Shown here: positions 377 to 58,302 of the stretch, one piece after another
Layout of the letters: every line of letters starts with the position of its first letter
How positions within the stretch are numbered: position 1 is the first letter of the stretch
From: Candidatus Uhrbacteria bacterium
Lineage (GTDB): Bacteria; Patescibacteriota; Patescibacteriia; 2-12-FULL-60-25
Assembly (NCBI GenBank): GCA_016222815.1
Contig: JACRQE010000002.1
Location: 248,001-312,000 of the forward strand
Length of the DNA: 64,000 nucleotides
Direction of reading: 5' to 3'
Notes under the pieces: model-generated
Database searches by the model: none
The model's input: only the letters and a program-made list of their open reading frames with translations
What the model was told of the DNA's origin: nothing
Position numbers and translations under genes: made by a program

Positions 377-476
377 ACGTATACAGTGTACCAGACTTAG
401 GCAGGAATCCCGATTGACCCAACCCCTTTAATCCTATATATTCGCCCTGCCACCTGTCCCTGTAGCACAATGGATA

Positions 477-498
477 GCCCGGTCATCCGACCGGGCAG
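477..498 (+). repeat. Palindrome inserted in the D loop of the tRNA-Arg copy
   Basis: A perfect hairpin with stem GCCCGGTC/GACCGGGC and loop ATCC, followed by AG. The intact tRNA copy has GGATA joined directly to GTGCGCC at this point, so the borders of the insertion can be read exactly. Confidence 0.85.
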
Positions 499-533
499 GT
501 GCGCCAGCCTTCTAAGCTGGTCATGATGGTTCG

Positions 534-573
534 CCAGGTCATCCGACCTGGCGCCCGGTCGGATGACCGGGCG
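534..573 (+). repeat. Double palindrome inserted in the T loop of the tRNA-Arg copy
   Basis: Two adjacent hairpins. The first has stem CCAGGTC/GACCTGG and loop ATCC; the second has stem CGCCCGGTC/GACCGGGCG with loop GGAT, the reverse complement of ATCC. Both share the 12-base core GGTC-ATCC-GACC with the D-loop insertion, the second in inverted orientation. The insertion splits GGTTCG from ATTCCA of the T arm. Confidence 0.85.
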
Positions 574-582
574 ATTCCACCT

Positions 583-834
583 ATGATGTATTTTGTCTAC
601 GTCCTAAGATTAAATAATGGCGATTTGTATAAGGGGTATACGGAAGATATCGAGAGACGGCTAAAAGAGCATGAGCGCGGAATTGTCGATTCAACACGGC
701 CATTCAGGCCGTTAAAACCAGTCTTGATAGAAAAATACTTCAATCAGTCTGATGCGATGAGACGTGAACGATTCCTCAAAACAACGGAAGGACGAAGATT
801 GCTTCATCAGCAATTGAGAGATACGCTTTCATAA
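583..834 (+). CDS. GIY-YIG nuclease family protein
   Basis: The product is an 83-residue single-domain GIY-YIG protein of the UPF0213/YhbQ type. The GIY-like element is YFVYVLR near the start, the YIG-like element is LYKGYT, then comes the conserved arginine region ERRLKEHERG and a later acidic and basic segment RRERFLKTTEG expected to supply the metal-binding Glu. Length matches free-standing family members. Catalytic activity is plausible but unproven. The gene begins four bases after the end of the disrupted tRNA-Arg copy and stops four bases before the intact tRNA-Arg, so it lies inside a duplicated tRNA locus. There is no Shine-Dalgarno site; the frame is also open upstream to a GTG at 499 inside the tRNA copy. 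Start is ATG 583 or 586. Confidence 0.85.
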   Translation: MMYFVYVLRLNNGDLYKGYTEDIERRLKEHERGIVDSTRPFRPLKPVLIEKYFNQSDAMRRERFLKTTEGRRLLHQQLRDTLS

Positions 835-838
835 TTAA

Positions 839-913
839 GTCCCTGTAGCACAATGGATAGTGCGCCAGCCTTCTAAGCTGGTCATGATGGTTCGATTCCA
901 TCCGGGGACACCA
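839..913 (+). tRNA. tRNA-Arg (TCT), intact copy
   Basis: A full cloverleaf: acceptor GTCCCTG/CGGGGAC with one G-T pair, D stem GCAC/GTGC, anticodon stem CCAGC/GCTGG around CTTCTAA (anticodon TCT), T stem GATGG/CCATC, discriminator A and encoded CCA. It is the undamaged counterpart of the copy at 456-579. Confidence 0.95.
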
Positions 914-4703: not shown

Positions 4704-5636
4704 TCAATTTTCCCTTCTTCGCGCATGGAATGCCTGGTGCACTTCCTTCAATTGTTGGTTGGTGACGTGGGTGTAGATCTGGGTGGTGGTAATGGATGAA
4801 TGGCCAAGCATGGCCTGGACGCTGCGCAGGTCGGCGCCGTTCATCAGGAGGTCGGTGGCGAAAGAGTGGCGGAGCGTGTGCGGCGAGACTTTTTTGGGGA
4901 TGCCGGCCGCGGCCGCATATTTTTTTACGAGCCTCTCGATGGAACGTGGGGTGATGGAACCCACGACCTCGGCGCCTGATTTGGCGCGGTCGTGGCGCAC
5001 GAAAATGTAGGGACACTCGTCCTGGCGAGCTTTGAGATATTCGCGCAGGAAGTGGCGAGCTTGGTTGGAGAGGAAGACCACGCGCACCTTGTCACCTTTA
5101 CCGCGAATGGAAAATTCTTCGCGGTCCAGGTTGATCATGTCTTTCTTCAGAGTGGCGAGTTCGGAGACGCGCATGCCGGTGGAGAAGAAAAGTTCGAGCA
5201 CGGCGCGGTCGCGGGCTTTGATGATATCCGGCGCGTCGGTCGAGGCGGGCGCGGCGAGAAGGCGCTCTAGGTCCATGGCATCGAGGAACGAGACTTCGCG
5301 CGTCCCCTGCTTAGCCAGCTCGATCTTCTCGGGTGCCATGCTGTCCACGTCGTGGCGGGCTAGGTACTTGAGAAAAGAACGCAGGGCAATCAGGTGATAA
5401 TTCTGCGTGGACTTCTTGAGCGTGCCGCGCTTGGGATCTTCGAGACGGTTCAGCCACAAGCGATAATTCCGGACCATCTCGTAATCCACATCGTCGGCTT
5501 TAGGATCCTTGGACCATTCGATGAAACGGTGGAGATAAAAATCATAATTGCGGACCGTGAGGGGCGAGCGGCCTTTTTCGATCTCGAGATATTCGAGGAA
5601 CTTGCGGAGATAGTGGGAAATGGGTTGGGAGGACAT
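4704..5636 (-). CDS. Tyrosine recombinase of the XerC/XerD family
   Basis: A 310-residue tyrosine recombinase. The N-terminal SAM-like core-binding domain (residues 5-95) is followed by the catalytic domain with Arg156 (TGMRVSEL), Lys180 (GKGDKVR), His253 and Arg256 (HTLRHSF), His279 (GHSS) and the nucleophile Tyr288 (IYTH). Length and all six active residues match Xer proteins, which resolve chromosome dimers at dif in cooperation with FtsK. It is the only recombinase in the window, so it may act alone as in other one-recombinase systems; that is inference. The start is the Met of MSSQPIS; upstream in-frame residues look non-coding. It converges with the peptidase gene. No obvious dif-like 28-mer was noticed nearby. 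Confidence 0.92.
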   Translation of the reverse strand: MSSQPISHYLRKFLEYLEIEKGRSPLTVRNYDFYLHRFIEWSKDPKADDVDYEMVRNYRLWLNRLEDPKRGTLKKSTQNYHLIALRSFLKYLARHDVDSMAPEKIELAKQGTREVSFLDAMDLERLLAAPASTDAPDIIKARDRAVLELFFSTGMRVSELATLKKDMINLDREEFSIRGKGDKVRVVFLSNQARHFLREYLKARQDECPYIFVRHDRAKSGAEVVGSITPRSIERLVKKYAAAAGIPKKVSPHTLRHSFATDLLMNGADLRSVQAMLGHSSITTTQIYTHVTNQQLKEVHQAFHARRREN

Positions 5637-5729
5637 GGAGGAATGGTACTCAGTACTTGGTAGATTATAGCGGATGGGTCGGAAAATGGATAATTTTAGT
5701 ACAAATTTGGCCAAAAGAGGGTAAATACC

Positions 5730-57909: not shown

Positions 57910-58225
57910 TGGTGGACCTTAAGGGATTCGAACCCTTGACCCTCCCGATGGACATCGGGATGCTCTATCTTCGCCGTATATGACAAGACCCGCTTTTGTG
58001 CGGGTTTCGTCGTGGTGGACCTTAAGGGATTCGAACCCTTGACCCTCCCGATGGACATCGGGATGCTCTATCTTCGCCGTATATGACAAGACCCGCTTTT
58101 GTGCGGGTTTCGTCGTGGTGGACCTTAAGGGATTCGGGATTCGAACCCTTGACCCTCCCGATGGACATCGGGATGCTCTATCTTCGCCGCATATGACAAG
58201 ACCCGCTTTTGTGCGGGTTTCGTCG
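57910..58225 (-). repeat. Tandem array of three truncated tRNA-Ala copies
   Basis: Three units start at 57910, 58013 and 58116 (plus coordinates), 103, 103 and 110 bp long; the last has a seven-base duplication in the T loop. Read on the minus strand each unit contains a terminator hairpin (AAACCCGC/GCGGGTCTT), 20 bases unlike the tRNA (TATACGGCGAAGATAGAGC zone), a perfect hairpin TCCCGAT-GTCC-ATCGGGA in place of the anticodon arm, and then the T arm, acceptor 3' strand and CCA of tRNA-Ala, identical to the real gene. The first two units are identical; the third differs at one more base. Confidence 0.85.
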
Positions 58226-58302
58226 TGGTGGACCTTAAGGGATTCGAACCCTTGACCCCTTCCATGCCATGGAAGTGCTCTAGCCAGCTGAGCTAAAGGC
58301 CC
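58226..58302 (-). tRNA. tRNA-Ala (GGC)
   Basis: On the minus strand a full cloverleaf: acceptor GGGCCTT/AAGGTCC with G3-U70, D arm GCTC/GAGC, anticodon stem CTTCC/GGAAG around ATGGCAT (anticodon GGC), T arm AAGGGTTCGAATCCCTT, discriminator A and encoded CCA. It is the intact source of the truncated copies downstream of it. Confidence 0.96.

Follow-up and report, generated by a model that had tools for sequence, protein, structure and literature searches.

The window analysed here is a stretch of 64,000 nucleotides from a Candidatus Uhrbacteria genome, and it carries, all on the forward strand, a broken copy of a tRNA-Arg(TCT) gene, a small GIY-YIG nuclease gene and an intact tRNA-Arg(TCT) gene. 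The intact tRNA (839-913) was identified by ARAGORN and by Rfam (tRNA, 69.1 bits) and is followed by a terminator-like hairpin at 920-945, conserved in an empty site of a related genome (L034). The broken copy is preceded by a promoter-like box, CCTATATATTCGC, at 433-445, which presumably served the original tRNA-Arg gene. It consists of three blocks, corresponding to nt 1-22 of the tRNA (456-477; 22/22 identity to 839-860), nt 22-56 with the anticodon arm intact (499-533; 35/35 identity to 860-894) and ATTCCA (574-579), without the 3' acceptor strand; the exact match of the blocks to the intact gene, claimed in a preliminary description of this DNA, was confirmed. Blocks 1 and 2 are separated by a D-loop insert of 21 nt (478-498), first described as 22, which lies at the 3' edge of the D loop and forms a hairpin with loop ATCC (GCCCGGTCATCCGACCGGGC at 477-496). 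Blocks 2 and 3 are separated by the T-loop insert of 40 nt (534-573), correctly described as a double hairpin: two adjacent hairpins have the loops ATCC and GGAT, the second has the reverse complement of the core of the first, and the insert splits the T-arm motif as GTTCG/ATTC.

The nuclease gene (583-834, stop included; 83 aa) is the only open reading frame between the two tRNA copies, in a cassette of less than 0.5 kb; it ends four bases before the intact tRNA, as had been reported, and begins three, not four, bases after the broken copy. The frame is also open from a GTG at 499 across the broken tRNA into the nuclease (499-834), so that annotation could add a spurious tRNA-derived N-terminus to the protein. 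The hairpins share one core, as the preliminary description had it, with GGTCATCCGACC at all three places. With one mismatch allowed, this core occurs in the 64 kb only at these three places, and five copies were found genome-wide, three of them at this locus; a genome-wide repeat was ruled out, the hairpin being nearly confined to the locus. Folded as RNA, the cassette region was far more stable than its shuffles (z -8.3). A chance origin of the arrangement was excluded because it recurs at many loci.

The predicted protein matched PF01541 (47 bits, E 2.5e-12) and carries the catalytic Tyr, Arg, His and Glu of the GIY-YIG superfamily, with Y6, Y16, G18, R26, H30 and E62 invariant. It is domain-only, without a separate DNA-binding domain. 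Its structural model (pLDDT 96.5) matched GIY-YIG structures, the closest folds including UPF0213/YhbQ and SLX1 proteins (1zg2, 1ywl, 6seh), which resemble it in fold and domain size. These proteins have housekeeping or repair roles, and SLX1 is a branched-DNA nuclease; the YhbQ-like genes of the same genomes, unlike the tRNA-linked cassettes, are without duplicated flanks. For nuclease pairs with unsaturated dS, dN/dS was 0.03-0.12, most pairs being saturated at synonymous sites, and this indicates that the protein is maintained by purifying selection. A known anti-phage defence system was rejected, PADLOC giving no match. Searches of PHROG and NCBIfam gave no match of the protein to SegB or phage homing endonuclease families.

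The source genome (1.30 Mb, 8 contigs) holds six PF01541 genes. One of them (L003) lies beside tRNA-Arg(CCG), with an upstream broken copy bearing D-, anticodon- and T-arm hairpins and, behind the GIY-YIG gene, a 3' partial tRNA copy bearing a further hairpin; the same arrangement was found in congeners at tRNA-Pro, Trp, Arg(GCG), Phe and Val. A family survey of all PF01541 genes in 41 genomes, searched blind to tRNAs (80 stretches examined), revealed a tRNA density of 1.0 per kb within 250 bp of GIY-YIG genes, falling to 0.23 between 250 and 500 bp and to about 0.03 at distances above 1.5 kb. Sequence patterns divided the genes into T (tRNA-linked), R (away from tRNAs) and Y (YhbQ-like) types. 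Across the phylum (80 further stretches beyond the family set), the T profile matched in 203 of 287 genomes, and of 164 T genes, 110 had a tRNA no more than 300 bp away, in 109 cases on the same strand, with 37 isoacceptors represented in all; the T profile and the query for a named genome set were built from tRNA-adjacent genes, the family survey was not. A tRNA lay within 300 bp of none of 28 genes of the REP-type R subfamily and of 9 of 26 Y genes. About a third of the T subfamily has no tRNA within this distance. At loci where contig ends lie near the gene, tRNAs are undercounted; the genomes are public assemblies, many of them metagenomic.

In the named genome set, the pattern was the same in Berkelbacteria, Roizmanbacteria, Magasanikbacteria and others, as well as in a Marinimicrobiota assembly and some proteobacterial ones. 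On one Marinimicrobiota contig (L311), three broken tRNA-Asp copies and the hairpin TCCCGATGGAATCGGGA lie beside a T-type gene, which could reflect a binning error or inter-phylum transfer. T-type genes were also found beside tmRNA, on the same strand, at five loci (L168, L195, L206, L242, L251), and likewise at L306. The cassette of a small GIY-YIG gene and partial tRNA copies interrupted by hairpins is recurrent in Patescibacteria, and many tRNA isotypes adjoin GIY-YIG genes; since the same arrangement stands at dozens of tRNA genes across the phylum, it resembles a parasite of tRNA genes that is widespread and, it seems, of an undescribed kind.

Two congeners (L034 and L344) carry empty sites, with an intact tRNA-Arg(TCT) but no GIY-YIG gene, and by-eye comparison showed the same promoter-like box directly before the intact tRNA. 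In the window this box precedes the broken copy, so that the broken copy appears to hold the original position, and the intact copy probably needs read-through. Sporadic presence with an empty target allele in relatives and tRNA association at many isotypes are marks of a homing endonuclease, and these findings bear out a part of the earlier proposal, that the cassette uses tRNA genes, for which the lack of an empty site in close relatives had been named as a refuting condition. Isotype labels were clustered on the nuclease tree (64 changes versus 81 when shuffled; 0 of 200 shuffles as low) but often switched; the best within-genome isotype pair (L152/L212) is old, with saturated dS.

Comparison of the loci revealed two layouts. 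In one, the GIY-YIG gene ends 0-60 nt before the intact tRNA, with an upstream broken copy that usually begins at tRNA nt 1; in the other, the intact tRNA with its terminator comes first and the gene starts after it, followed by 3' partial copies and sometimes by a duplicate of the terminator. Pieces of the locus's own tRNA amounted to 27.2 and 18.0 nt per locus, versus 0.6 and 0.5 nt for other isotypes, and at L126 and L028 identical hairpins were found in the 5' and 3' tRNA copies. Such displaced partial copies look like attL/attR remnants, and a XerC/D-type gene lies at 4704-5714 of the window, as would fit a cassette placed at the tRNA by a tyrosine recombinase, with the GIY-YIG gene as cargo. 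This explanation is already disfavoured and, in our judgement, extremely unlikely: the cassette is shorter than 0.5 kb, many isotypes have exactly matching duplicates, and the displaced copies lie 5', 3' or on both sides. An integrase-mediated tRNA element was rejected, there being no recombinase gene in the cassette. A group I intron in the tRNA gene was likewise rejected, the Rfam scan of L005 having returned tRNAs only, with sub-threshold chance matches and no ribozyme; Rfam gave no other known RNA at the cassettes examined.

The 53 inserts found in broken copies had a mean longest stem of 6.43 bp, versus 3.47 bp when shuffled (the highest of 200 shuffles being 3.83) and 3.14 bp in random flanks. 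Most of their breakpoints lay in one of the D, T and anticodon loops or precisely on either side of the anticodon arm, and none lay in the acceptor stem. The preliminary description had placed the insertions in loops, which is correct for the D and T loops of the window, but the anatomy proved wider, extending to broken copies on the 3' side, to anticodon arms that had been replaced, to tandem arrays and to tmRNA loci. The T-loop double hairpin has the form GGTTCG-[hairpin]-CG-[hairpin]-CG-AATCC and was found again and again, at tRNAs for Arg, Ser, Lys and Tyr; its stems differ, and at several loci its loops are ATNC and GNAT. The layout seen in the window was found also at L074, L174, L180, L160 and L235. 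In three full-length copies all 14 pairs were kept, six of them with compensatory changes, and the anticodon-arm hairpin likewise showed compensatory changes over six loci. These changes, the very stable fold and the position of the double hairpin a few nucleotides before the start codon at several loci would suit an RNA leader, in which the hairpin-bearing broken tRNA would fold, evade both RNase P and tRNA maturation, and regulate how strongly the nuclease or the tRNA is expressed, mobility being secondary or past. Such a role is quite unlikely in our view, as it leaves unexplained the empty sites, the 3' copies behind the gene, the nuclease-free tandem arrays and the isotype switching.

A related array was seen also apart from the nuclease. 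On the reverse strand of the window (57915-58302), tRNA-Ala(GGC) at 58226-58302 is followed by three tandem 3'-half copies in which the anticodon arm is replaced by the hairpin TCCCGATGTCCATCGGGA, with no GIY-YIG gene. At L034 (1290-1455), L013, L017 and L019, an antisense T-arm, several hairpins, a sense T-arm/acceptor 3' end and a second terminator follow one another behind tRNAs, again with no GIY-YIG gene inside. Also at L019 (2414-2657), the two halves of a tRNA-Ile(GAT) copy, divided at nt 36/37, enclose an intact tRNA-Ile. The hairpin CCCGRTGNACAYCGGG, related to the window core, has 14 copies in its genome, some away from tRNAs, and in three congeneric genomes (L262, L265, L272) it lies 59-69 bp from tRNA-Asp(GTC). 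The tRNA-Ala array and the dispersed CCCGRTGNACAYCGGG hairpins might indicate that tRNA genes were duplicated in tandem and the spare copies decayed as unrelated palindromes invaded them, GIY-YIG genes being present only because tRNA neighbourhoods are tolerant. We hold this to be very unlikely, given that 109 of 110 genes share the strand of their tRNA and that isotypes cluster on the tree; the pieces are, moreover, perfectly identical, the inserts are concentrated in loops or whole arms, and YhbQ-type GIY-YIG genes of the same genomes are without direct or inverted flank repeats.

The type of hairpin follows the nuclease lineage across tRNA isotypes. Cores of the form GTC-ATNC-GAC were found within 350 bp of the gene at all four loci of the window clade (Arg, Ser, Lys, Ser) versus 2 of 160 other T loci, and once in 512 kb of outer flank, so that palindromes do co-occur with GIY-YIG genes beyond the window, an outcome in favour of the preliminary description, which had named the lack of such co-occurrence as refuting; two further clade members were found by the hairpin pattern itself and are not independent evidence. 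In addition, similarity of the hairpin cores rose with nuclease identity, all pairs being at different isotypes (13 of 1000 permutations as high). On another reading, the hairpins themselves would be what the nuclease recognises, much as REPs are for RAYT; it would cut hairpins or cruciforms, tRNA arms included, and spread hairpins together with its own gene between hairpin-rich tRNA genes. The tracking of core by clade and its rise with nuclease identity, the conserved loops ATNC and GNAT with covarying stems, and SLX1 among the closest folds all agree with this, as do the inverted repeats of the sister subfamily (see below). Nevertheless we consider it unlikely, since the genome does not carry the window hairpin as a dispersed repeat, no hairpin cleavage is known here, and the covariation is weak evidence if the palindromes are independent insertions. 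To our knowledge, domain-only GIY-YIG proteins have no transposase activity.

Analysis of the R-type genes showed inverted flank repeats of at least 12 nt at 16 of 31 loci, versus 6% in mispaired controls, and none was found for the Y type. In one genome (L107, at 4001 and 7750), two R copies share 96% identity over 522 bp; TGTCATTGCGAG and CTCGCAATGACA mark their limits, and the sequence outside is unrelated for each copy on one side at least. REP-type inverted repeats (TGTCATTGCGAG, TTGTCATTCCTGCG, TCATCCTGAACTTG) flank R-type genes at L107, L085, L096, L122, L137 and L001. These data support a general link of small GIY-YIG enzymes to palindromes. A wider reading, which we offer tentatively as a possibility, is that two unrecognised classes of palindrome-linked bacterial element owe their mobility to small domain-only GIY-YIG proteins, one class hopping between tRNA and tmRNA genes and building partial tRNA copies armed with lineage-specific hairpins, and a sister class bounded by common REP-type inverted repeats (TGTCATTGCGAG..., TTGTCATTCC..., TCATCCTGAAC...), as a GIY-YIG counterpart of RAYT-REP. 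The sister subfamily may reveal the mobility enzyme of common REP-like repeats.

The explanation of the locus that we favour, and hold to be somewhat probable, is a small SegB-like mobile cassette that targets tRNA genes, keeps the intact tRNA and rides its promoter. SegB of phages T4/T6 is a free-standing GIY-YIG homing endonuclease beside tRNAs of many isotypes, which cuts inside tRNA genes with the motif RAWTSGAAC and, by way of recombination, causes tRNA segments to be amplified (PMC13096335, which cites Brok-Volchanskaya 2008). As reverse complement, this motif reads GTTCSAWTY, the sequence of the T arm. The window has it whole in the intact tRNA (890-898) and interrupted by the double hairpin in the broken copy. 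Acting as a free-standing homing endonuclease, the domain-only nuclease would attack a sequence common to all tRNAs, most likely the T arm, with GTTCGATTC as a candidate cleavage sequence in the intact or empty tRNA. Repair of the break would copy the cassette into the tRNA locus, and an intact tRNA would be left with a partial duplicate at one flank or at both. This intact tRNA would keep the host alive and be excised from the transcript by normal tRNA processing, while the promoter of the tRNA would also serve the nuclease gene. Isotype promiscuity, local duplicates and tandem arrays would all be accounted for if a SegB-like enzyme cut the T arm and recombination ensued.

Hairpins in the D, anticodon or T loops would, on the same reading, disarm the partial copies. 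The T-loop 9-mer of the locus's own tRNA survives in 2 of 49 upstream broken copies, a figure not wholly due to hairpin disruption, since many of these copies stop short of the T loop; that an intact T loop is retained in several 3' copies counts against the reading. Also against the SegB-like cassette, the intact tRNA keeps the proposed target, so that self-cutting must somehow be prevented. Further points on that side are the lack of a SegB family match and of a separate DNA-binding domain in the proteins, the age of the L152/L212 pair, the third or so of the T subfamily without a tRNA within 300 bp, and the origin of the phylum profile in tRNA-adjacent genes. If this reading is true, attack on tRNA genes of the SegB type would reach beyond phages into the chromosomes of a large bacterial phylum, an explanation would be at hand for the families of palindromes and broken tRNA copies that these genomes carry, and the loci would form a natural record of a selfish gene lodged in an essential RNA gene without killing its host.

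Several known systems invite comparison. A literature search, covering few subscription papers and no preprints, returned no link of GIY-YIG genes to tRNA copies or REPs in bacteria other than the phage SegB paper. In bacteria, group I introns that carry endonucleases and lie in tRNA genes (PMC3984707) also place an endonuclease gene at a tRNA gene, but here no ribozyme was found, and the tRNA is duplicated rather than spliced. Mobile double-hairpin and repetitive hairpin elements of organelles (PMC2800124) have, by their description, single and double hairpins inside RNA-coding genes; no nuclease partner is reported there, and here the hairpins lie in broken bacterial tRNA copies. RAYT-REP/REPIN systems (PMC2817692, PMC3116915), which the preliminary description had taken as precedent, share a nuclease gene flanked by palindromes whose type tracks the enzyme lineage. 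The enzyme here is GIY-YIG and not an HUH tyrosine transposase, the palindromes lie inside tRNA copies, and there are few copies per genome, the five of the window core (three at the locus) not making an abundant dispersed repeat; RAYT-REP is an analogy, not membership, and SegB is the better precedent. The present cassettes differ from SegB in being chromosomal and mostly of Patescibacteria, in their domain-only proteins of 80-100 aa and in their hairpin-interrupted tRNA copies, a feature not described for SegB; as the window protein matches none of the SegB family models, the likeness would be one of action and not of proven membership. What the two have in common is a GIY-YIG gene adjoining tRNA genes of many isotypes and, in the target of SegB, a motif like the T arm.
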